Origin: Anaerotruncus sp. G3(2012)
GTDB taxonomy: Bacteria > Bacillota > Clostridia > Oscillospirales > Ruminococcaceae
Length of the DNA: 64,000 nt
Assembly: GCF_000403395.2 (NCBI RefSeq)
Contig: NZ_KE159678.1
Location: forward strand, 142,502-206,501
Direction of reading: 5' to 3'
Under the pieces are notes generated by a model. The model had not been told where the DNA came from and did no database searches. It saw only the letters and a list, made by a program, of their open reading frames with translations. The translations under genes and the position numbers were made by a program. Below, piece by piece: positions 20,713 to 31,806 of this stretch (the stretch's first letter is position 1; each line of letters starts with the position of its first letter).

Positions 20713-20755
20713 AAGGCACCCCGCCCGATATATCCGGGCGGGGTGCCTTTTTTTC
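20713..20755. terminator. Bidirectional terminator
   Basis: Perfect 15-bp GC-rich stem, 20713-20727 with 20735-20749, then a T run. It separates the secreted protein from the 3' end of the phosphonate operon. Confidence 0.92.
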
Positions 20756-20769
20756 TATTTGGCAGGTCC

Positions 20770-22074
20770 TTATTCTTCTGGTATCAGGGAAAGGATACTC
20801 TTGATCGGCATACAATACTGCTCGTCCGCTTCTTTGGCGCGGTGGCAGCGCAGGATGGTTTCAGCCGTCTTTTGCATAGCCGGATAACTGCTGCGGATCA
20901 GGTGGTTGGCGTAGATCACCACGTTGACCCCCCGACGTTTAAACTCCTCTTCGTATACAGCATTATAGGAGGTCGGTACGACGACAAGAACCGCGCGTTG
21001 GTTTTCCTCACGGAACTGCTGGACAAATGTAAATACTTCATCCGGTTCCTTGCGTCGGGAATGGATCATAATGCCATCCGCGCCGGCTGCTACATAAGCT
21101 CGTGCACGTGTCAGGGCATCGTCAATCCCCTTTTCCAGAATGAGGCTTTCAATGCGGGCGATAATCATAAAATCTTTGGTCTTTTGCGCCCGCTTTCCTT
21201 CGGCTATTTTATAACAGAAATTTTCAATGGTGTCCTGCTGCTGAGGGACTTCTGTACCAAAAAGAGAATTTTTCTTCAAGCCGGTTTTATCTTCTATGAT
21301 GATCGCGGAGACACCCACCCGTTCCAGACTGCGTACGGTATAGACAAAATGCTCTGTCAGACCGCCTGTATCGCCGTCAAGGATGATCGGCTTGGTCGTC
21401 ACCTCCATGATGTCGTTAATCGTGTTCATCCGGGAAGAGAAGTCGACAAGCTCTGTATCAGGCTTTCCCTTGATGGTGGAGTCACAAAGGGAGGAAACCC
21501 ACATACCGTCAAACTGCCGGATTGCCCCTTCTTCCATGATGACTGTTTTTTCAGCGATCAAACCGGTGAGACCGGTGTGCGCTTCCATGCAGGTAATCAT
21601 GCTCTTCTTTTCAATCAGCCATTTCAAGCGGCCCCGACGGATATCCGGGATGGAAAGCTGAGATCTGGCGGCGGCCTCCAAACGGTCGTACTGGGTATTG
21701 ATGGAGTAAGGATATTCAATCAATTCCCCGCCATATTCCGCAAGAAGCTGGATGCATTCATCCCGCACCGGCTTTTGAAACCCAGTGACCCAGTCGTCGC
21801 CATGCACCACATAGTCGGGGCGCATCCTGCGCAGTGGTTCCCGATAACTGATGTCCTCCTGTTTGACAACCGCGGAAACACCTTTGATCCCGGCTACAAT
21901 TTTCATGCGTTCCTCGCAGGAAAGGAGCGGGTAACGTTTATAGGTGGCTACGATTTCATCGGTGAGGACACCAACTGTCAACTCCCCAAGTTCTGCGGCA
22001 CGTTTTATGATTTCGATGTGACCACCATGGATCACATCGGTGCTCATACACATAAATACTTTTTTGTCTGACAT
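20770..22074 (-). CDS. pepM: Phosphoenolpyruvate mutase fused to an N-terminal cytidylyltransferase-like domain
   Basis: This encodes 434 residues. About 1-130 is a nucleotidyltransferase fold with the HxGH-type motif HGGH (16-19), like glycerol-3-phosphate cytidylyltransferase. About 145-434 is PEP mutase: DGDTGG (234-239) and the diagnostic EDKTGLKKNS (261-270), which separates the mutase from isocitrate lyases. It rearranges phosphoenolpyruvate to phosphonopyruvate, the first committed step of almost all phosphonate synthesis. It is the last gene of the minus-strand operon 27098-20770. The N-terminal domain could activate the phosphonate with CTP, alongside the separate NTP transferase at 24442-25167. 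Confidence 0.9.
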   Translation of the reverse strand: MSDKKVFMCMSTDVIHGGHIEIIKRAAELGELTVGVLTDEIVATYKRYPLLSCEERMKIVAGIKGVSAVVKQEDISYREPLRRMRPDYVVHGDDWVTGFQKPVRDECIQLLAEYGGELIEYPYSINTQYDRLEAAARSQLSIPDIRRGRLKWLIEKKSMITCMEAHTGLTGLIAEKTVIMEEGAIRQFDGMWVSSLCDSTIKGKPDTELVDFSSRMNTINDIMEVTTKPIILDGDTGGLTEHFVYTVRSLERVGVSAIIIEDKTGLKKNSLFGTEVPQQQDTIENFCYKIAEGKRAQKTKDFMIIARIESLILEKGIDDALTRARAYVAAGADGIMIHSRRKEPDEVFTFVQQFREENQRAVLVVVPTSYNAVYEEEFKRRGVNVVIYANHLIRSSYPAMQKTAETILRCHRAKEADEQYCMPIKSILSLIPEE

Positions 22075-22162: not shown

Positions 22163-23284
22163 TTATTTCCCTGCTAAAAAATTCATAAAAGAGATTTTAT
22201 TTTCAATAGGGGAGGTTGTGGGCCTTCCCAAATTCTTTCGTGTGCCAGTCGCCGCCTTCACTTCCAGAAAAGACAGTGTTTCGGCTTGTTTCAATCGTTG
22301 CAAGGCATCATCCAATGCATCAAAATCAGCGGCGCACGCAACATATGTATAGCCACATGTCTTCGCAATCTGGGAAAGCTCCAGATTTCCTGCCACAGTG
22401 GGCATCCCGCCTACCGATTCGTGGGAGCCGTTGTTGATAGCGACGTGGATGAACCGTTTTGGGGCGTTCGCACCTACTACCGACAGAGCACCCATGTGCA
22501 TCAGAATGCTGCCATCGCCATCAATGCACCAGACTCTGCGTTCCGGCTTTTGAAGTGCGATCCCCAGCGCAATAGAAGAACAATGCCCCATCGAACCAAC
22601 AGTCAGGAAATCACGGGCGTGATCTTGCCCGCGGGCTTCACGGAGCTCAAACAGCTCACGGGAGGCCATCCCTGTAGTGGAAACAAACAGATCGTTCTCG
22701 TCTGCGGCGTCCAGAATATGGGACAAAATCTCCTCCCGGCGCATGATGCCATGGCTGGAAAATGAGGTCTGCTGTGTATATTCCAACGCATTTTTCCGGA
22801 CAACAAAAGCTGCCTGTCCGCCTTTATGAAATACCTCCCGGTATTCCTCAAGTTTGGAGCGGACTTCCGCCTCAGTTGTATGCTGGCCAATAACAAAAGC
22901 GGGAATCTGCATCTGTTCGAGCAGTTCGATTGTCCGTTCGCCTTGAAAAATATGCTGCGGTTCGTCGTGCACACCGGGTTCCCCACGCCAGCCAACAATA
23001 AAGAGACAAGGAATCCCGTATACCTTCTGATGGAGCAGAGAAGCGACAGGGTTGATGATATTTCCAAGTCCGCTGTTTTGCAGATAAACGACAGGGACTT
23101 TTCCGGTTGCCAGATGGTACCCGGCGGCTAGTGCAACCGCATTTCCCTCATTCGCGGCAATGACATGCTGGGAGGAGATACCATAACGATCGAACAGAAA
23201 TGCTGTCAGAGCTTTTAATTGAGAATCCGGCACCCCGGCAAAAAAATCTGCATCAAGAGCATCTACAAAATTTTCGATATTCAT
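22163..23284 (-). CDS. ppd: Phosphonopyruvate decarboxylase
   Basis: This encodes 373 residues, thiamine diphosphate-dependent. The N-terminal part has FFAGVPDSQLKAL and the cofactor-activating glutamate region AANEGNAVALAAGYHLATG. The C-terminal part has the ThDP/Mg motif region WCIDGDGSILMHMGALSVVG, then ending in NNGSHESVGGMPT. These are features of phosphonopyruvate decarboxylases. The reaction yields phosphonoacetaldehyde and makes the unfavourable mutase step irreversible. Shine-Dalgarno GGGGGG. It lies between the reductase and the mutase in the operon. Confidence 0.9.
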   Translation of the reverse strand: MNIENFVDALDADFFAGVPDSQLKALTAFLFDRYGISSQHVIAANEGNAVALAAGYHLATGKVPVVYLQNSGLGNIINPVASLLHQKVYGIPCLFIVGWRGEPGVHDEPQHIFQGERTIELLEQMQIPAFVIGQHTTEAEVRSKLEEYREVFHKGGQAAFVVRKNALEYTQQTSFSSHGIMRREEILSHILDAADENDLFVSTTGMASRELFELREARGQDHARDFLTVGSMGHCSSIALGIALQKPERRVWCIDGDGSILMHMGALSVVGANAPKRFIHVAINNGSHESVGGMPTVAGNLELSQIAKTCGYTYVACAADFDALDDALQRLKQAETLSFLEVKAATGTRKNLGRPTTSPIENKISFMNFLAGK

Positions 23285-23303: not shown

Positions 23304-24425
23304 CTAAGTATTTAATAAAATTTCTCCATACAATTCCATTAATACTTGTGAGTCTAGCATTATAGGATTATTTTTTAGGCGAACGGGATTTACCGAATTT
23401 GCAAGGATAAGAATATCTTCCCTTTTCCAAGATTGCGGTGCAGTTAATTTCAACTTCCGAAGGATATTCATCAAATATTGTTCAACAGATATTGTATCAG
23501 GGCATCCCAGTGCTTCTGCCAATTTTATAAGGCTCTGCTCTACATGCTTATATCCTCTGGGATCGATGCATTTCGTTTTTAGATGCGTCCTCATGTATTT
23601 CCATAGATGGGGAAGGCATATTGCTACAGCATGTCCATGCGAGATACCATAAAGAGAAGTCAATTTGTAACTCATCGCATGACTGGCAGTTGTCTGCGTG
23701 ATATTGATTGCTTTCCCTGCAAGGTTTGCAGATGTCAACATTTCATTTGCAGCCTCGGGATTTCCCTCCAGATAATCTGGCATCCATTTCATAATCTTTT
23801 TGATTACACTTAATGAGTACTCCATGCTTTCAACATTTGAATGAATGGACCATCCAGACTCAATTCCATGACATAAAGCGTCCATCATAGCTGATTTTTT
23901 TTGATAATCTGGTAAAGTTTTTAAAAGAGAAGGGTCAAGGATGACAACTGATGGAATACAGCTTTCATGTGTAATAGACTGTTTTTCTCCATGCTGATAA
24001 ATTACAGCATAGCGAGTCGCCTCGCTGCCGGTTCCTGCAGTCGTTGGGATAGCAATTAGCATAATTTTATTTGGAATAATTTTTTGCTCTAAATAGCAGG
24101 TATTTGAATCCATGGTACTATACAACTTAATGCATTTTGCTACATCAATTGTACTACCGCCACCGATTGCAATAATTGCTTGACTTTTTGATTGCAGGAA
24201 GCATTCTACTCCGTCAACAATGGATTCATAGCGGGGATTTACACAGAAATTATTAAAACGTGTAATAGTGATTCCTAACTGTTCCAATTGAGTAAAAAAG
24301 TGATCTAAAGGTAAATGGGCGATAGCTTGATCACACACTAAAAATAGCTTTTTGATTTCTTTTTGTTTTAAATAGGTTGTTAAATAAAAATATCCTTCAT
24401 TCCCCATCCATATCAGTTGAGGCAT
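23304..24425 (-). CDS. Iron-type alcohol dehydrogenase, probable phosphonoacetaldehyde reductase
   Basis: This encodes 373 residues from ATG 24425, chosen because GAGGGGG lies 6 nt upstream. Fe-ADH fold: NAD(P)-binding GGGSTIDVAKC (about 86-96), PTTAGTGSEATRYAV (about 128-142), and metal-ligand histidines in DALCHGIESGWS and ISHGHAVAICLPHLW. Its place between decarboxylase and cytidylyltransferase genes predicts reduction of phosphonoacetaldehyde to 2-hydroxyethylphosphonate, as by PhpC-type enzymes. No aminotransferase gene is present, so 2-aminoethylphosphonate is the less likely product. AT-rich compared with the chromosome. Confidence 0.82.
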   Translation of the reverse strand: MPQLIWMGNEGYFYLTTYLKQKEIKKLFLVCDQAIAHLPLDHFFTQLEQLGITITRFNNFCVNPRYESIVDGVECFLQSKSQAIIAIGGGSTIDVAKCIKLYSTMDSNTCYLEQKIIPNKIMLIAIPTTAGTGSEATRYAVIYQHGEKQSITHESCIPSVVILDPSLLKTLPDYQKKSAMMDALCHGIESGWSIHSNVESMEYSLSVIKKIMKWMPDYLEGNPEAANEMLTSANLAGKAINITQTTASHAMSYKLTSLYGISHGHAVAICLPHLWKYMRTHLKTKCIDPRGYKHVEQSLIKLAEALGCPDTISVEQYLMNILRKLKLTAPQSWKREDILILANSVNPVRLKNNPIMLDSQVLMELYGEILLNT

Positions 24426-24441
24426 ATTCATCCCCCTCTTC

Positions 24442-25167
24442 TTAATTTTTACTTGAAATTTTTTCAAGGGCAGACGAAATTACCTCTCTATCTTCTGGAG
24501 TATCAATTTCTCTGCAAAGGGCATTTTTTATATCAAACGGATAAATCAAGCATTCAGATGAAATACAATTAAAAGCATTTTCACTGTAGCAGGTGATATC
24601 TCCTTTTTCGCAGAAGCTCTCTATTTCATCTAACCATAATTCCCAATCTTTCTTTAGCAATTTATACAAAGGTTGTGCTGAGACAGCATTATCAAAGAAC
24701 TCTATGCCTATTTTTTGTATCCGCCCTTCTGAAACAACAGCTTTGAAATCTTTTTCAGGAAGATTCACAGTAGAACTGACAGCCATAACGCTGGTTGAAG
24801 CTGTCTTTATTTTTTCTAAAACAGATGGTTCAAAGACCAAATCTCCATGCATTAGGAGTGTGTCGTCTCCACGTAGATGTTTACGCGCAAGATAAATAGA
24901 ATAAATATAATTGCTTTCATGATAGCGGGGATTATTTACAAATATATACTTCAATGGAAGCTTTAGCGAGTAACAGTAATCCACCAGAATATCAGAAAAC
25001 GGACCAGTTGTGATAACCACCTTGTCGGCCCCAGACTGAGATAATAATCTAAGCTGATGACTGATGATAGTTTCATTTTTTTGTATTTCTGTCATGCACT
25101 TTGGATGTTGAGAGGTGAGCTCTCCCATACGGGTACCTGCTCCAGAGTTTAAAATTAAAGTATTCAT
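24442..25167 (-). CDS. Sugar-nucleotidyltransferase-like phosphonate cytidylyltransferase (PntC/LicC-like)
   Basis: This encodes 241 residues with an N-terminal nucleotide-binding loop, LNSGAGTRMGELTSQHPKCM (residues 6-25, the GxGTRM...PK signature), and LLMHGDLVF as the metal-binding Asp region. LicC/PntC-type enzymes couple CTP to phosphocholine or to alkylphosphonates. In this operon the substrate is probably 2-hydroxyethylphosphonate, giving a CMP-activated donor for the phosphotransferase gene immediately upstream. The start codon has only a weak Shine-Dalgarno. AT-rich, like the reductase, suggesting transfer as a unit. Confidence 0.78.
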   Translation of the reverse strand: MNTLILNSGAGTRMGELTSQHPKCMTEIQKNETIISHQLRLLSQSGADKVVITTGPFSDILVDYCYSLKLPLKYIFVNNPRYHESNYIYSIYLARKHLRGDDTLLMHGDLVFEPSVLEKIKTASTSVMAVSSTVNLPEKDFKAVVSEGRIQKIGIEFFDNAVSAQPLYKLLKKDWELWLDEIESFCEKGDITCYSENAFNCISSECLIYPFDIKNALCREIDTPEDREVISSALEKISSKN

Positions 25168-25202: not shown

Positions 25203-27098
25203 CTAATGGAGATTTTGCGGTTTATTTTTTGCTTTTTTCTGAAGACTTGAAAGTATATAGCGACCACCGATCTCACCGCTATGCCCCATATGATAAAGAT
25301 ACTCATCCGTTAGCTCGGCAATTTTTTGAGAATAGTCTGCTGCATGCTCCAATAAATATTCCAGGGATTTTCCCACTTGATTTGTCTGTTCCGGTTTTAG
25401 CTGAATTCCTATTTTTCCTCTTAGTGTCAGGTTTAATGGTTCTGCAACTGTATCAGCATAATTGGGATTTGCTACCTTCATTGGAGTGTCAATAAATAGC
25501 ACCGGCTTTCTAGTTGAGAAAGCATATTCAAAAGCAATACCGGACCAGTCACTGATAAGAACATCTGCGCTGTATACCGTTTCATTAGAGGAAAAATCGC
25601 TTTGTAAGATCAATTTATCTTTGGATATATTTTTATATTGATCTTGTAACTTCTTCCAACGAGCTCCATATCTTTTGACGTATTCAGGATGAGGTCTGAC
25701 AATAATCTGCCAGCCGTCTCGTAGAGACGAACTCAAAAGGGGGTCTAAACAAAGATCCAGAATATTATCCTCTTGCCAAGATGGGGCTACTAGTATTTTT
25801 TTTATAGTTTGATTTCTGTAGTTTTCCTCATTCTCTAAGTAGTGTCGCCTCATGTTTTCAATGACACTATATCCGCATTCAATTAAATTTTTTTCTGCAA
25901 GTGAATATTGACATTCTATTTTACGAATTTCTTCTACTTGTCCTTTCCCAGTACAAAAGATCGTGTCGTAATGATCAAGGGCCCCGTCACGCAATGTCAT
26001 GATAAAACTAAGAGGGGCATGGAAAACATAGATATATTCAATATTTTTTCGTACATAGCTACGTTTGATGTGAAAATTTTCTAAGTCGGTCATGGTCATG
26101 ACCACCATATCGGCATCCATTTTCATCATCAAGGTAATCAGCCGCTTTTCCCCAATATAATAGGGCCTGATTCGAGGTTCCTTCTGTGCCTTTTGAAAGA
26201 TTGCGTCATCAGGATCGCTGGTAATGTAATGTATAATAATGTTTGAATGGGTAAGTAAATACTCAATAATATTCTCAAAATACTTATAAAATCCGCTGCT
26301 CTCCGAGTAAAAGACCAGATGTTTGTTTGCGATCGAAAAGAACCGCTTATAATCGGCCTTTTCCCGCTGTCTGTCCTCTTTGGAGACACGCGACGAAAGG
26401 GAGTCAATACCTGCAAGCTCCTGTTTACTTTGTTCCAGAGCCTCATAGTCGACATAGTTTCGGGCCGGCATAACCGCATTTAACACCAACTGCTGTCCGA
26501 TCGTCAAAAGATTGCTGGCGATCCAGTAAACGCCTACGCCAACCGGTACAAATGCCCCCAGGAGCAAGGATATGCCGATTGAGACGCCGTTTGTGGCCCA
26601 CTGGCTTGCCCGAGCCTGCTCCCGCTGAAGCGGATTGAATTGGTTCTGTGCGAGCCCCAGCAGAAGTGCAGAGCCGCCCGCGGCCAGCGGCATCAGCAAT
26701 GTCATCCCTCCCGCTTGAGCAGGAGGGACGGAAAGTACACTTTCCGTCCCTGCAAGAAGGGCCTGCACCGCACCAATCACCCCGATCAGCAGTGCAAGCT
26801 GGATAAACATGGGGACTGTGCTGGCCAGTGGATGGTATCCGCGCTGTTTATACAACGCCTGTGTTTCTTCCGCAATGGTATCTTTATCTCCGTAGTACTT
26901 CACTTTCAGCCGGTTCAGCTCGGGCATCAGACGGATCATCGTGATCCCGTTTCTATGTGTCCACAGGGAAACCGGGAACAGAATCACCTTGGTGAGCAGC
27001 GTAAAAATAAGAATCGCCGCGAGATAATGCCCCACCATGCGATAACAAATCATCATTAACGCATTTAGTGGGACTGCCAACTGTTCTGTCAAACTCAT
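25203..27098 (-). CDS. YidC/Oxa1-like membrane domain fused to CDP-glycerol-type phosphotransferase (copy A, phosphonate operon)
   Basis: This encodes 631 residues. Residues ~1-225 are a YidC/Oxa1 insertase fold (LTKVILFPVSLW, LMPELNRLKVKYYGD, ALYKQRGYHPLASTVPMFIQLALL, then three more helices). A linker to ~270 leads to a Glyphos_transf domain: a His in VFHAPLSF, LVAPSWQEDN, IIVRPHPEY (TagF-type RPHP) and DVLISDWSGIAFEYAFSTRKPVLFIDTP. The predicted job is transfer of a CMP- or CDP-activated group, here probably hydroxyethylphosphonate, to a membrane-attached polymer. The first ~830 bp, with leader, are nearly identical to the opposite-facing gene at 28414; the last ~280 residues differ. It is first in the phosphonate operon. 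Confidence 0.88.
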   Translation of the reverse strand: MSLTEQLAVPLNALMMICYRMVGHYLAAILIFTLLTKVILFPVSLWTHRNGITMIRLMPELNRLKVKYYGDKDTIAEETQALYKQRGYHPLASTVPMFIQLALLIGVIGAVQALLAGTESVLSVPPAQAGGMTLLMPLAAGGSALLLGLAQNQFNPLQREQARASQWATNGVSIGISLLLGAFVPVGVGVYWIASNLLTIGQQLVLNAVMPARNYVDYEALEQSKQELAGIDSLSSRVSKEDRQREKADYKRFFSIANKHLVFYSESSGFYKYFENIIEYLLTHSNIIIHYITSDPDDAIFQKAQKEPRIRPYYIGEKRLITLMMKMDADMVVMTMTDLENFHIKRSYVRKNIEYIYVFHAPLSFIMTLRDGALDHYDTIFCTGKGQVEEIRKIECQYSLAEKNLIECGYSVIENMRRHYLENEENYRNQTIKKILVAPSWQEDNILDLCLDPLLSSSLRDGWQIIVRPHPEYVKRYGARWKKLQDQYKNISKDKLILQSDFSSNETVYSADVLISDWSGIAFEYAFSTRKPVLFIDTPMKVANPNYADTVAEPLNLTLRGKIGIQLKPEQTNQVGKSLEYLLEHAADYSQKIAELTDEYLYHMGHSGEIGGRYILSSLQKKAKNKPQNLH

Positions 27099-27164
27099 CT
27101 TTTTCTCCTAAACTCCCTCTTTTTATCTTTCATAACCAGATCAGCCGATAATTTCTGATTATCT
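26332..27164 (-). repeat. Left arm of 833-bp inverted repeat
   Basis: Aligned without gaps to 28348-29180 in opposite orientation. I counted about four mismatches: one in the leader, an E/K codon, a T/A codon, and one synonymous. The arm covers the leader and the YidC-like part of copy A. Identity falls off abruptly at 26331. Confidence 0.92.
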
Positions 27165-27200
27165 AGTCTATAGTTTACAGGATTTTTTGACAAACTGCAA
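27165..27200 (-). promoter_or_regulatory. Outward promoter at the edge of the invertible segment
   Basis: On the minus strand TTGTCA (27193-27188), 17 nt, TAGACT (27170-27165). The -10 abuts the first base of the repeat arm. An overlapping alternative is TTGCAG (27200-27195), 17 nt, TAAACT (27177-27172). Both read toward copy A. No comparable promoter is seen at the other edge. Confidence 0.55.
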
Positions 27201-27393
27201 TACCCTATTTGGTAGAAACAGAGTGTATTCAAGAAGTTTTTATTTGGCGTAATCAGGAAGTCTATAGTAGAAAACAGCGGAAGAGAGACCATATTTAGCA
27301 AAAGATGGATGTTTTCATATCCTCCAATTGTAGACATGGCAGTTAAGAACGGCCATAATAAAAATAAATTTTTTAGAAAGCGGAGGACGGATT

Positions 27394-28302
27394 ATGCAGC
27401 AGCTATTATCGCAGATTATGGATTATCTTGAAACAGGAAAAGCTGAGAAACGATTGTCACCGAATACCATAAAAGCTTATCGCATTGATTTACAGCAGTT
27501 TTGGGTCTTTACAGGGGGCGTTTGGGCAGACCAGGATATGTTGGGTCAGTATATCAAATATCTGAATCAGCAGTTCGCCCCGCGTTCGGTGAAACGAAAA
27601 TTGGCAAGCATCCGGGCTTTTTATCATGAGATGAAGGTGAAAGGAGAACTTGAGGAAAATCCTTTTGACAGGCTCCAGATTAGGATTCATTCCCCGAGAC
27701 AACTGCCGCGCATCATTCCCAGCCAGATCGTGCATGACCTTTTACAAAGCGCCTATGACAACTATAGGCCAGGGAGCCGATGGGTGTTGCGTGATATAGT
27801 CGTTTTGGAGCTTCTGTTTAGTACAGGGCTTAGGGTATCAGAATTATGTGCATTATCCAAGGAAACGTTCCTGTTGACTGATAGCGGACTTCGGCTTTTG
27901 GTAAATGGGAAGGGCAGAAAGGAGCGGATCATACAAATCACGACACCTGAACTGGTTCATCTTACTAAAATTTATGACAATGAATTTTCAAAGGAGATAC
28001 AAAATCAGGGCGCTATCCTGTTCAACCAAAAGGGGCGTCCCCTCTCTCCGCAATCGGTCAGACGGATTATCAATAAATATTTGAAGCGGATTGGTGTATC
28101 CAGCCATGTGACCCCGCATATGTTCCGCCATACTTTTGCAACTTCGTTGCTGGAAGCTGGGCTGGATATCCGATATATCCAATCTCTGTTGGGACACAGC
28201 TCCATCTCAACCACGCAAATCTATACCCATGTGACTGTCAATCGGCTTACCTCACTTCTGGCAGAAAAGCATCCAAGAGGAAAGATGACCTTTTCACTTT
28301 AA
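27394..28302 (+). CDS. XerC/D-like tyrosine recombinase, probable DNA invertase
   Basis: This encodes 302 residues, complete. An N-terminal SAM-like core-binding domain (RLSPNTIKAYRIDLQQFW, about 20-37) precedes the catalytic domain. Residues: Arg in STGLRVSEL, Lys in NGKGRKERII, H-x-x-R in HMFRHTFATSL, His in LLGHSSISTT and Tyr in IYTHV. All six catalytic positions are intact. Xer chromosome-dimer resolvases do not sit inside inverted repeats, whereas invertases of phase-variable loci do. Shine-Dalgarno GCGGAGG. The gene lies wholly within the segment bounded by the 833-bp arms and ends just before a perfect terminator. Confidence 0.88.
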   Translation: MQQLLSQIMDYLETGKAEKRLSPNTIKAYRIDLQQFWVFTGGVWADQDMLGQYIKYLNQQFAPRSVKRKLASIRAFYHEMKVKGELEENPFDRLQIRIHSPRQLPRIIPSQIVHDLLQSAYDNYRPGSRWVLRDIVVLELLFSTGLRVSELCALSKETFLLTDSGLRLLVNGKGRKERIIQITTPELVHLTKIYDNEFSKEIQNQGAILFNQKGRPLSPQSVRRIINKYLKRIGVSSHVTPHMFRHTFATSLLEAGLDIRYIQSLLGHSSISTTQIYTHVTVNRLTSLLAEKHPRGKMTFSL

Positions 28303-28312
28303 TTTTGCACGC

Positions 28313-28342
28313 AACACCGCTGAATATTCAGCGGTGTTTTTT
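28313..28342 (+). terminator. Terminator between recombinase and copy B
   Basis: Perfect palindrome with 13-bp arms (28313-28325 and 28326-28338), followed by a T run. Rightward transcription from the recombinase would stop here, 70 nt before copy B. Confidence 0.9.
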
Positions 28343-28347
28343 CTGTA

Positions 28348-29180
28348 AGATAATCAGAAATTATCGGCTGATCTGGTTATGGAAGATAAAAAGAGGGAGT
28401 TTAGGAGAAAAAGATGAGTTTGACAGAACAGTTGGCAGTCCCACTAAATGCGTTAATGATGATTTGTTATCGCATGGTGGGGCATTATCTCGCGGCGATT
28501 CTTATTTTTACGCTGCTCACCAAGGTGATTCTGTTCCCGGTTTCCCTGTGGACACATAGAAACGGGATCACGATGATCCGTCTGATGCCCGAGCTGAACC
28601 GGCTGAAAGTGAAGTACTACGGAGATAAAGATACCATTGCGGAAAAAACACAGGCGTTGTATAAACAGCGCGGATACCATCCACTGGCCAGCACAGTCCC
28701 CATGTTTATCCAGCTTGCACTGCTGATCGGGGTGATTGGTGCGGTGCAGGCCCTTCTTGCAGGGACGGAAAGTGTACTTTCCGTCCCTCCCGCTCAAGCG
28801 GGAGGGATGACATTGCTGATGCCGCTGGCCGCGGGCGGCTCTGCACTTCTGCTGGGGCTCGCACAGAACCAATTCAATCCGCTTCAGCGGGAGCAGGCTC
28901 GGGCAAGCCAGTGGGCCGCAAACGGCGTCTCAATCGGCATATCCTTGCTCCTGGGGGCATTTGTACCGGTTGGCGTAGGCGTTTACTGGATCGCCAGCAA
29001 TCTTTTGACGATCGGACAGCAGTTGGTGTTAAATGCGGTTATGCCGGCCCGAAACTATGTCGACTATGAGGCTCTGGAACAAAGTAAGCAGGAGCTTGCA
29101 GGTATTGACTCCCTTTCGTCGCGTGTCTCCAAAGAGGACAGACAGCGGGAAAAGGCCGATTATAAGCGGTTCTTTTCGAT
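28348..29180 (+). repeat. Right arm of 833-bp inverted repeat
   Basis: Mirror copy of 26332-27164. The inner edge starts AGATAATCAGAAATTATCGG, which itself contains a GATAAT/ATTATC dyad and could be a recombinase core. The outer edge at 29180 is followed by accumulating differences inside the coding sequence of copy B. Confidence 0.92.
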
Positions 29181-30300
29181 TGCGAACAAGCATCTGGTTT
29201 TTTACTCGGAGAGCAGCGGATTTTACAAGTATTTTGCCGACGTGATTGACTACCTACTGCAGCATTCCAATCTTTCTATACACTATATCACCAGTGACCC
29301 CAATGATGCAATCTTTCAAAAGGCACAGAAGGAACCTCGAATCAGGCCCTATTATATTGGGGAAAAGCGGCTGATTACCTTGATGATGAAAATGGATGCC
29401 GATATGGTGGTCATGACAACTCCAGACCTAGATAATTTTTACCTCAAAAAAAGTTATGTAAAAAAAGATGTGGAGTATATTTATACCGCCCATGGAGTGG
29501 GAAGCACAAACCTTTTGCTGAGAAATTGCGCCCTTGCCCATTTTGATACCATTTTTTGTATTGGCCCATATCAGATTGAGGAATTGCGGGAAGAAGAATA
29601 TGTTTATAACCTCCCGTCAAAGACACTTGTGCCCTGTGGCTATGGACTTTTAGATTCGGTTATGACCGCATATGATAGCAGTTTATCAAAGCGGTTAAAG
29701 GAGAAACCGCAGGTTTTGATTGCTCCGTCTTGGCAGCCTGATAATATTTTGGATACCTGTATTGATCCGCTCTTGGATTCTTTGCTGTGTGGGAAATATC
29801 ATATTATTCTGCGTCCACATCCAGAGTATTGTAAGCGGTATCCTCAAAAAATTGCTATCTTGAAAAGCCGTTATAAGGATAAGCTCGGCCAATCCAGCAG
29901 TGGATTTGAACTTCAGACGGACTTTTCTTCCAATGAGACTGTATTTGAATCTGATATTGTGATTACAGACTGGTCAACCATTTGTTACGAATTTTCTTTT
30001 GCTACCAAGCGCCCTACGCTTTTTGTAAATACGCCAATGAAGGTTATGAATCCAGATTATCAACGGCTGAAAAGGATACCGCTGGATATAGAAATCCGGG
30101 AAAAAATCGGAAGGTCAATCTCTCCTGATACAGCTGGAGAGATTGAAAGAGTGGTTGAAAAGCTGCTTATGCAGGCTGACGCATACGCACAGTCTATCGA
30201 AAAGCTGTTGGGAGAATGTCTTTTTAATCCAGGACAAAGTGGAATGGCTGGCGGAAAATACATCATAGATAGATTACTCAATAAGCAGTCGATAGATTAG
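28414..30300 (+). CDS. YidC/Oxa1-like membrane domain fused to CDP-glycerol-type phosphotransferase (copy B, glycerol-phosphate operon)
   Basis: This encodes 628 residues. Residues 1-~256 are almost identical to copy A (YidC-like). The phosphotransferase domain (about 270-625) is clearly related but diverged, with HG in TAHGVGSTN, IILRPHPEY and DIVITDWSTICYEFSFATKRPTLFVNTP. The different C-terminus suggests a different donor. The next gene is a glycerol-3-phosphate cytidylyltransferase, so CDP-glycerol is the likely one. Shine-Dalgarno TAGGAG. No promoter is visible upstream in the present orientation, only the terminator at 28313, so this operon may be silent until the segment inverts. Confidence 0.88.
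   Translation: MSLTEQLAVPLNALMMICYRMVGHYLAAILIFTLLTKVILFPVSLWTHRNGITMIRLMPELNRLKVKYYGDKDTIAEKTQALYKQRGYHPLASTVPMFIQLALLIGVIGAVQALLAGTESVLSVPPAQAGGMTLLMPLAAGGSALLLGLAQNQFNPLQREQARASQWAANGVSIGISLLLGAFVPVGVGVYWIASNLLTIGQQLVLNAVMPARNYVDYEALEQSKQELAGIDSLSSRVSKEDRQREKADYKRFFSIANKHLVFYSESSGFYKYFADVIDYLLQHSNLSIHYITSDPNDAIFQKAQKEPRIRPYYIGEKRLITLMMKMDADMVVMTTPDLDNFYLKKSYVKKDVEYIYTAHGVGSTNLLLRNCALAHFDTIFCIGPYQIEELREEEYVYNLPSKTLVPCGYGLLDSVMTAYDSSLSKRLKEKPQVLIAPSWQPDNILDTCIDPLLDSLLCGKYHIILRPHPEYCKRYPQKIAILKSRYKDKLGQSSSGFELQTDFSSNETVFESDIVITDWSTICYEFSFATKRPTLFVNTPMKVMNPDYQRLKRIPLDIEIREKIGRSISPDTAGEIERVVEKLLMQADAYAQSIEKLLGECLFNPGQSGMAGGKYIIDRLLNKQSID
28762..28809 (+). repeat. Two adjacent hairpins inside the YidC-like coding region
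   Basis: GGGACGGAAAGT / ACTTTCCGTCCC (12-bp arms) is followed at once by CCCTCCCGCT / AGCGGGAGGG (10-bp arms). They encode the loop AGTESVLSVPPAQAGG between two helices. Copy A has the same pair with one synonymous change that weakens the second hairpin. Confidence 0.7.
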
Positions 30301-30460
30301 GGCTTGTTTGAAAATAGAGAAATAGACGGATGGTTCGTAAAAAGTGAGCGGCCGCAAGGAAAAAAGCACAGGAATACTTGCTGTATTCCGCGCATTTTTG
30401 ACGCGGCAGCCGCCGCTTTTTGTAGAAAAAGACGGCTATTTCGATTTTTCAAACAGCCCC
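30300..30460 (+). repeat. MITE-like repeat, family 1
   Basis: About 161 bp with imperfect ~28-bp terminal inverted repeats: GGGCTTGTTTGAAAATAGAG at the left, the complement of GGGGCTGTTTGAAAAATCGA at the right. A second member is at 53475-53583. It begins on the last base of the copy B stop codon and separates copy B from tagD. Confidence 0.75.
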
Positions 30461-30489
30461 TAGATAAAACAAAAGGAAGATGTGATAAA

Positions 30490-30879
30490 ATGAAGCGAAT
30501 TATAACATATGGTACATATGACCTTTTACATTATGGGCATATCAATTTGCTGAAACGGGCAAAGGAGTTTGGTGAATACCTTATTGTGGCGCTTTCTACG
30601 GATGCATTTAATTGGAATGAAAAGGAAAAAAGATGTTATTTTTCTTACGAAGAGCGTAAACAGCTTTTAGAATCTATCCGATATGTGGATTTGGTTATCC
30701 CGGAAGAAAATTGGGAACAAAAAATCAACGATATACAATTATATAAAATAGATACATTTGTTATGGGAGATGATTGGCGGGGAAAGTTTGATTTTTTAAA
30801 AGATTATTGTGAAGTGGTCTATTTGCCAAGGACCCCTGAAATATCTACAACACAGATAAAAAAAGATTTGAGGCGATGA
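30490..30879 (+). CDS. tagD: Glycerol-3-phosphate cytidylyltransferase (TagD-like)
   Basis: This encodes 129 residues from ATG 30490; the frame is open further upstream through the repeat element, but GGAAGATG before this ATG and the family's normal length support it. It opens KRIITYGTYDLLHYGHINLLKRAKEFG with HxGH as HYGH (residues 14-17) and ends with RTPEISTTQIKKDL, the second CTP-binding signature (R-x-x-x-I-S-T-T). The product CDP-glycerol is the usual donor for Glyphos_transf enzymes such as copy B just upstream. Confidence 0.92.
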   Translation: MKRIITYGTYDLLHYGHINLLKRAKEFGEYLIVALSTDAFNWNEKEKRCYFSYEERKQLLESIRYVDLVIPEENWEQKINDIQLYKIDTFVMGDDWRGKFDFLKDYCEVVYLPRTPEISTTQIKKDLRR

Positions 30880-30957: not shown

Positions 30958-31806
30958 ATGCAGGTGATTATGTTTGGAGCTGGTACAACTGGTCGTATAT
31001 TGTACAGTGAAATTGCTTCAAAAGATGAGGTGATTGCATTCGCGGACAATAATCATGAGAGATGGGGGGAGTTGCTGTTCGACATTCCAATCTGCAATCC
31101 TGAGGAATGTCTGGTCAATATGACATATGATGCAGTTATTATTTCAGCATTTGGAGGATTTGACGAGATTCATCAGCAATGCTTGAAATTGGGAATACCA
31201 GAGGAAAAAATTATTACATCTCACATTGGGGTATCGTTAGCAGCGCGCAAAGTGTTTTTGGGGAATTTATCCTTCTTATTGAATGAATATGAACAGGAAG
31301 CGGATGTGGCAGAAGCCGGTGTATATTGCGGGGACTATGCGAAATGGATAAATGCCTTCTTTCCGAAAAGGATTCTTCACTTATTTGACACATTTGAAGG
31401 GTTTGACGAAAGAGATGTTGCTGTAGAAACGAAAAATACCTTCTCAGATGAAAAGGCGGGACATCTTAATGAATCGTCTGTTGAGATTGTTATGAAAAAA
31501 ATGCAACACCCGGAACAGTGCCGTATTCATAAAGGATATTTTCCGGATACAGCGATAGGAATAGAAAGTAAATTCTGCTTTGTAAATCTGGATATGGATT
31601 TATATTTACCTACATACAATGGGCTGTGTTTCTTCAGGGATAAAATGACGGAACAGGGTGTCATTTTAGTCCATGATTATTATTCAGCGGGATACAAGGG
31701 GGTCAAGGCTGCGGTAGAAGAATTTCTGAAAGAATACGGAGAGGGCGTCAACAAGTATCCAATAGGGGATGGTGTCAGCATTATGTTGGCAGGAAAATGG
31801 AATTAA
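30958..31806 (+). CDS. TylF/MycF-like O-methyltransferase with N-terminal Rossmann-like domain
   Basis: This encodes 282 residues. About 1-75 resembles the nucleotide-binding modules found in surface-sugar enzymes (MFGAGTTGRILYSEI, IAFADNNHERWG). About 95-282 is a TylF-type SAM methyltransferase (VAEAGVYCGDYAKWINAFFP, LFDTFEGFDERD, FVNLDMDLYLPTYNGLCFF, LVHDYYSAGYKGVKAAVEEF), including the metal-ligand aspartates DMD and HDY. It probably methylates a sugar hydroxyl of the polymer made by this operon. Shine-Dalgarno AAGGAGG. A terminator follows. Confidence 0.82.
   Translation: MQVIMFGAGTTGRILYSEIASKDEVIAFADNNHERWGELLFDIPICNPEECLVNMTYDAVIISAFGGFDEIHQQCLKLGIPEEKIITSHIGVSLAARKVFLGNLSFLLNEYEQEADVAEAGVYCGDYAKWINAFFPKRILHLFDTFEGFDERDVAVETKNTFSDEKAGHLNESSVEIVMKKMQHPEQCRIHKGYFPDTAIGIESKFCFVNLDMDLYLPTYNGLCFFRDKMTEQGVILVHDYYSAGYKGVKAAVEEFLKEYGEGVNKYPIGDGVSIMLAGKWN

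Follow-up and report, generated by a model that had tools for sequence, protein, structure and literature searches.

A putative two-state inversion switch between phosphonate and glycerol phosphate operons in Anaerotruncus sp. G3(2012)

Results

Two oppositely facing genes for fusions of a YidC-like half with a glycerophosphotransferase half lie in a 64,000-nt stretch of the genome of Anaerotruncus sp. G3(2012), together with a recombinase gene between them. This whole stretch, to which all positions refer, is called the window here and falls in contig C22 of the 3.6-Mb genome. The left fusion gene (25203..27098, minus strand) encodes 631 residues and the right one (28414..30300, plus strand) 628 residues, the fusion being assigned from Pfam domains in both cases (60KD_IMP and Glyphos_transf in the left gene). 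Their glycerophosphotransferase halves are 54% identical. A mechanical repeat search returned inverted arms at 26028-27164 and 28348-29484, which are 1137 nt long, 95% identical and separated by 1183 nt. Identity is concentrated in the inner 833 bp (26332-27164 on the minus strand against 28348-29180 on the plus strand), where 828 of 833 positions agree (99.4%), far beyond what chance could produce; the outer 304 bp match at 253 positions, and beyond them identity drops to background. The near-perfect inverted repeat described in the initial annotation is thus confirmed, with five mismatches in place of the "about four" counted there. Each arm comprises a candidate crossover site, a leader, a start codon and the YidC-like half, the right arm being an inverted copy of the left, and both this content and the 1183-bp spacing given earlier are borne out by the repeat search and the open reading frames.

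Each arm carries a 17-bp near-palindrome, GATAATCAGAAATTATC, set one base in from its inner edge and followed by the 48-bp leader and the start codon. The left copy (27147..27163, minus strand) precedes the left start codon by 48 bp. The inverted right copy (28349..28365, plus strand) lies between the recombinase gene, whose stop codon is 46 bp away, and the right start codon, again at a distance of 48 bp. Both fit the pattern GATAAY-N5-RTTATC, and exact matches to it in this genome are confined to these two places; among ten other genomes of the genus, it occurs at single places in three and as a pair in none. These innermost 17 bp of each arm are very probably the crossover site. Inverted sites bounding a segment are what is expected of an inversion switch operated by a tyrosine recombinase (inverton). 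In hsdS-type systems, by contrast, crossover falls within the coding sequence and yields chimeric proteins; here both sites lie upstream of the start codons, in agreement with the earlier proposal that inversion would break neither coding sequence. Homologous exchange inside the arms would still leave both proteins nearly unchanged.

The interior holds, from left to right, a leftward promoter-like sequence, a possible rightward promoter for the recombinase gene, the recombinase gene itself and a terminator. The gene (27394..28302, plus strand) encodes a Xer-like tyrosine recombinase of 302 residues (Phage_integrase, 1.6e-40). It is complete, as had been claimed, and the residues aligned to the catalytic R, K, H, R, H and Y of XerD, at what we take to be the positions of these residues in XerD, are all identical, as expected of the intact recombinase of an inverton. 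Its scores fall below the curated cut-offs for XerC (245.5 against 335.15 bits) and XerD (234.2 against 329.6 bits) and do not place it with the recombinases of chromosome dimer resolution, for which a score above the curated model is expected. The recombinase gene and the arms were each found in one copy only in this genome.

The outward promoter-like sequence TTGTCA-17-TAGACT (27165..27193, minus strand) lies 1 nt from the left site. It is present and reads leftward as initially annotated, with a match (9 of 12 positions) that is ordinary for the region: 28 such matches were observed against 23.8 expected in 12.5 kb. Since matches of this quality are so near expectation, the hexamers alone were insufficient to call a promoter, and the sequence, weak in itself, counts chiefly by its position. 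A second sequence, TAGACA-17-CATAAT (27331..27359, plus strand; 10 of 12), likewise weak in itself, is a possible promoter of the recombinase gene. The terminator reported at the right arm is clear: an 11-bp stem followed by a T run (28313..28338, plus strand) follows the recombinase gene and would shield the right fusion gene. The surrounding 49 nt have a folding energy of -19.3 kcal/mol (z -5.8), which no shuffle equalled. Compared with an inverton that has a promoter at one end and is closed at the other, the closed end is strong here and the promoter end weak.

The left fusion gene is followed on the minus strand by genes for a nucleotidyltransferase of the MobA/LicC type (24442..25167; PF12804), an iron-containing alcohol dehydrogenase that is probably a phosphonoacetaldehyde reductase (23304..24467; Pfam Fe-ADH, no NCBIfam cut-off reached), a phosphonopyruvate decarboxylase (22163..23284; TIGR03297, 460.5 bits, cut-off 312.5) and a cytidylyltransferase-phosphoenolpyruvate mutase fusion (20770..22074; TIGR02320, 404.3 bits, cut-off 319.55; PF01467 at the N terminus). 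A terminator with a 16-pair stem (20713..20749, minus strand) ends the operon. Fom1, a mutase with an N-terminal cytidylyltransferase, produces cytidine monophosphate (CMP)-hydroxyethylphosphonate (PMC6697681), and because the left operon encodes a fusion of these two kinds of domain, its product is, by analogy, probably a hydroxyethylphosphonate-type decoration. In five of the ten loci compared, each of these five with a single fusion gene (L007, L008, L009, L017 and L061), relatives of all four left-operon genes also follow it, which ties the fusion gene to phosphonates. The fusion is widespread, with 76 loci (L007-L082) deposited mostly as Clostridia, Oscillospiraceae or Lachnospiraceae and a few under other phyla; a word-matching literature search, whose coverage leaves out most subscription journals, found no paper that describes it.

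On the right, the plus strand carries genes for a TagD-like glycerol-3-phosphate cytidylyltransferase (30490..30879; TIGR01518, 205.4 bits, cut-off 165.4), whose start codon was set at 30490 from the match position, and a TylF-like methyltransferase (30958..31806; PF05711). With key enzymes of both operons exceeding curated cut-offs, the phosphonate and glycerol-phosphate identities first assigned to them hold. A hairpin of about 170 bp that resembles a miniature inverted-repeat transposable element (MITE; about 30297..30465, plus strand; fold z -7.9) separates the right fusion gene from the cytidylyltransferase gene, and the continuity of the right operon is for this reason less certain than that of the left. 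The hairpin is dispersed, with 27 matches in the genome, ten of which (itself included) are at least 85% identical over at least 165 bases.

We then turned to relatives of the recombinase, of which 33 stretches were retrieved, some mutually related and hence not independent; matches at E ≤1e-30 occurred in 35 of 396 genomes of the family and at ≤1e-60 in 17 of 394 genomes of the order. In the first 20 stretches, 10 of the 15 listed short inverted repeats hold GATAAY-N5-RTTATC or a sequence one mismatch from it. Inverted pairs whose spacers match and whose sites deviate by no more than one mismatch are found in 15 of the 33 loci and are exact in 11, compared with none in 60 rounds of first-order shuffling and none in the 76 fusion-gene loci that served as controls. 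At the same tolerance, a site lies within 1.2 kb of the recombinase gene in 24 of the 33 loci; the control loci hold about one per 87 kb (13 in 1,135,947 bases). Where the recombinase is at least 53% identical and a site is present (eight loci), the distance from the 3' end of the recombinase match to the site is 43-64 nt in seven and 17 nt in the eighth; measured in the same way, it is 50 nt in the window. With less similar recombinases, 13 of 16 loci have the site upstream of the 5' end, at a distance of 125-287 nt.

Once L193 had been set aside (its sites are 133 bp apart and a partial recombinase adjoins them), 14 loci with a usable pair remained. Genes lie on both strands in 12 of these 14 segments and on one strand only in L177 and L223. 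The order in L192 is promoter, site, gene, opposed genes, site, terminator and recombinase; its recombinase fragment (about 83 residues) is 86% identical to that of the window, and terminator, site and gene follow it in the same sequence as in the window. Seen against this order, the window carries an L192-type circuit turned inside out: its operons flank a segment that itself contains promoter, recombinase and terminator. Four of six close relatives (L175, L192, L218 and L223) have a clear extended -10 promoter at 8-12 nt from the site, on the side opposite the recombinase, whereas the other two (L176 and L220) have no clear promoter of this kind there. Over all 14 loci, promoters outside the segment are clear (p ≤0.01 in 200 letter shuffles) at five (L175, L180, L192, L218 and L223) and unclear at nine; that of L180 lies on the same side as the recombinase.

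Pairwise comparison of related loci suggests where cargo changes. The alignable DNA of L178 and L185 spans recombinase and site and ends at the inner edge of the site, and that of L187 and L189 ends 12-13 bp past it; in both pairs the cargo beyond differs. In L217 (1077-4224) and L218 (9012-12159), from two species of one genus, 3.1 kb including the recombinase gene are 99.9% identical and the DNA on the segment side is different, which may reflect recent transfer or loss of cargo. One genome, G188 (L182, L183 and C17), has a contig that starts within a site and two more with an end or start some 23 bp past copies of a single site. As a sign of mixed orientations this is ambiguous, two similar copies of the stretch being present, and it was not counted.

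The arrangement was also sought in other genomes, using the segment DNA and the recombinase in 11 genomes of the genus, the fusion protein in the 396 genomes of the family, and genome and viral contigs, of which the viral ones gave no relative. Among the family genomes, with at most three candidates scored per genome, two fusion matches at E ≤1e-100 were found only in this genome and in G007 (deposited as Anaerotruncus sp. S30_Bin7), and no further genome searched was found to have two fusion genes that share a half. RUG12379 (L057, L068) and RGIG4454 (L055, L070) have two fusion genes as well but were rejected as holders of such a pair: their genes lie on separate contigs and are about 72-73% alike over the whole length, with no identical half. 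Within the stretches of the 76 fusion loci (flanks of at most 8 kb, many contigs being shorter), neither another fusion gene nor a match to the recombinase was present.

In G007, one fusion gene has tyrS further on, as on the right of the window, and the other is accompanied by the decarboxylase and the mutase, as on the left. The companions differ, with a radical SAM-cytidylyltransferase fusion on the phosphonate side and a DUF2284 protein and a nucleotidyltransferase on the other; the shared half and its neighbourhood have therefore been kept while decorating genes were exchanged. Both G007 contigs start from one and the same position in the shared half and are identical at 116 of 116 bases, a figure to be read with caution because, at a repeat, contig ends are bound to be identical for roughly the length of one assembly word. 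Over the same 116 bases the two copies in this genome differ at three, the two genomes differ from each other at 16-17, and 13 of the 15 codons changed between the genomes are synonymous. This pattern points to concerted evolution of the shared halves.

Discussion

We consider it highly likely that the window holds a two-state, site-specific inversion switch between the phosphonate operon and the cytidine diphosphate (CDP)-glycerol operon, the interpretation put forward in the initial annotation. It gains support because the recombinases of relatives adjoin inverted copies of the 17-bp pattern that opens the arms, and because a second species, G007, keeps the two-gene arrangement. From these features we infer a reversible inversion catalysed at the sites, with alternative expression states, products and a benefit to the cell. 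The recombinase (27394-28302) would act on the oppositely facing sites at 27147-27163 and 28349-28365 and invert the intervening segment of about 1.2 kb, which contains the gene of the recombinase itself. Whichever fusion gene faces the outward promoter would be transcribed with its operon, and the other would be screened by the terminator. As sequenced, the promoter would point at the left (phosphonate) operon, and after inversion at the right (CDP-glycerol) operon; this assignment of the active operon follows from the modest promoter match. Both proteins would stay unaltered, as the sites are upstream of the start codons. Gene conversion or homologous recombination would keep the arms alike and could provide a second route of inversion. 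The alternative products would probably be a hydroxyethylphosphonate-type group and glycerol phosphate, and the benefit may lie in variation of a phage receptor or antigen.

Several observations weigh against such a switch. Related genomes were searched for the segment in opposite orientation, as had been suggested; it was seen in no other assembly searched, and among these no second assembly that spans the segment came to light. The segment and the recombinase are missing from the G007 assembly; we did not accept this as a true loss of the recombinase, as both contigs end inside the shared half, so that the segment, present or not, falls outside what was assembled. No inverted pair was found in 18 of the 33 loci with recombinase relatives, and nine (L182, L190, L191, L194, L217, L219, L221, L224 and L229) have no site within 1.2 kb. 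Among these nine, L182 begins inside a site and L190 and L194 have truncated recombinases; L217, L219 and L221 carry full-length recombinases with 66-71% identity. The recombinase lies outside the segment in all 14 loci with a usable pair. The promoter-like sequence of the window is on the side that corresponds to the promoters of close relatives, but it is 1 nt from the site, weaker and without an extended -10 element. Finally, the MITE-like element may interrupt or weaken the right operon.

The segment might instead invert by RecA-type homologous recombination between the 833-bp arms, with the recombinase a passenger or acting elsewhere. Long near-identical arms are good substrates for this and their identity implies exchange between them; moreover, in the pneumococcal hsdS switches, PsrA is needed for inversion at a 15-bp repeat only (PMC4948785). 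The recombinase is intact, however, and the site of its family stands exactly at the inner edges of the arms, with no other exact match in the genome. Site-specific and homologous routes can also coexist, and we regard an exclusively RecA-type process as improbable.

Even less credence is due to the idea that the recombinase belongs to a mobile element, that the arms are a by-product of duplication and that nothing normally flips. It would fit the different cargo found beyond the site in relatives with similar recombinases and the 99.9% identity of L217 and L218 next to other DNA on the segment side. Inverted sites, on the other hand, favour inversion over excision, the recombinase and arms are single-copy in this genome, and among 30 viral loci with a relative only one holds a near full-length match, at 46%; we regard this reading as very unlikely. 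The structure could also be frozen, as a dead switch, or made in assembly, with the inverted repeat a joining error. Only one orientation is known, but all open frames are intact, the downstream halves and operons of the two fusion genes differ, and the independent assembly of G007 has both genes in the same neighbourhoods, leaving this explanation scarcely credible.

The related segments carry a variety of cargo. In L175 (10062-12285), an invertible-looking segment sets a ThsA-like SIR2-STALD protein against a TIR protein, the two converging. Thoeris requires both kinds of protein, SIR2-type and TIR, and a strict one-or-the-other reading is therefore odd for L175. Proteins of about 790-990 residues stand opposite enzymes in L178 (4349-8881), L180 (4719-9079), L185 (10155-13624), L189 (5470-9150), L192 (469-7349) and L220 (10696-15316). 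Five of these six large proteins have matches or similarity to NTPase, TPR, KAP or Mrr-like proteins, and that of L220 has none; the enzymes opposite them are ATP-grasp/D-Ala ligase-like, SHMT, PALP or glycosyltransferase proteins. PADLOC matches were absent or weak for all six, and a role of the large proteins in defence is a guess. Further segments hold a TIR protein (L181, 10656-12525) and a SEFIR-like protein (L223, 4158-9330).

It is tempting to speculate that an order-level clade of Xer-like recombinases with the site GATAAY-N5-RTTATC forms a general one-or-other module for any two genes or operons, in either topology, operons outside the segment as in the window or genes within it under an external promoter, and with cargo exchanged at the site, often setting a defence-like NTPase, TIR or SIR2 protein against a biosynthetic enzyme. 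The case for and against this wider proposal appears to us evenly balanced. The recombinase family with its site is nevertheless a more general lead than the single locus, and the shared site allows a family of two-way switches to be found from sequence alone. Several related switches appear to oppose defence-like proteins and metabolic enzymes, a pairing that needs explaining. If the switch in the window is real, it would be a clean genetic toggle between phosphonate and glycerol phosphate surface chemistries, likely to affect phage adsorption and immune recognition; its site is defined and its recombinase small, so that it can be tested on a plasmid.

Comparison with Known Systems

The initial annotation knew of no description of this layout. 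This stands for the combination of features, which we did not find described, but opposed surface genes with an invertible promoter are known from S-layer and Ureaplasma systems. In the S-layer genes of Campylobacter fetus (sapA) and Lactobacillus acidophilus (slp), one promoter or expression site serves two opposed genes in turn through inversion, and inversion at sapA depends on RecA. These switches share with the window two opposed surface-related genes, identical 5' parts and one promoter (a predicted one in the window), but they encode S-layer proteins, whereas the opposed genes of the window encode YidC-glycerophosphotransferase fusions at the head of glycan-decorating operons, and the segment contains a dedicated Xer-like recombinase of its own. 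In the mba and UU172 elements of Ureaplasma, two opposed surface genes alternate by DNA inversion, as proposed here; the sequence GATAATTTAAATTATC, found in a repeat region, has one base less than the pattern in the window, a likeness that may be chance (PMC3047005). One Ureaplasma repeat lies within coding sequence, and the genes and organism are different.

The same literature search, with the same coverage, found no paper on an inversion switch between phosphonate and glycerol phosphate as judged by titles and the starts of abstracts. Among the invertons of the hCom2 gut community, inverton group 139 (invertase group 35) comprises 33 members, 32 of them in Clostridia, with a new repeat motif and a tyrosine recombinase near almost all members (PMC11892184). 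If it represents the same site family, part of the novelty is gone.

A recombinase gene inside the invertible segment, as in the window, is found in the Hin system of Salmonella and in the fimbrial switch of Providencia stuartii (PMC5903667). Hin is a serine recombinase (PMC3798978), and the repeats of these systems are short (14 bp in Providencia), in contrast to the window, whose arms each include half a gene and whose two operons would alternate. The PsrA hsdS system of Streptococcus pneumoniae likewise combines opposed genes that share sequence with a tyrosine recombinase; its repeats measure 15 to 298 bp, and crossover inside the coding sequence creates new protein variants, whereas crossover in the window would take place before the start codons (PMC4948785). 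What is new at this locus is the combination of glycan-decorating operons, a recombinase inside the segment, arms that contain half a gene, and a site pattern common to many two-way arrangements.

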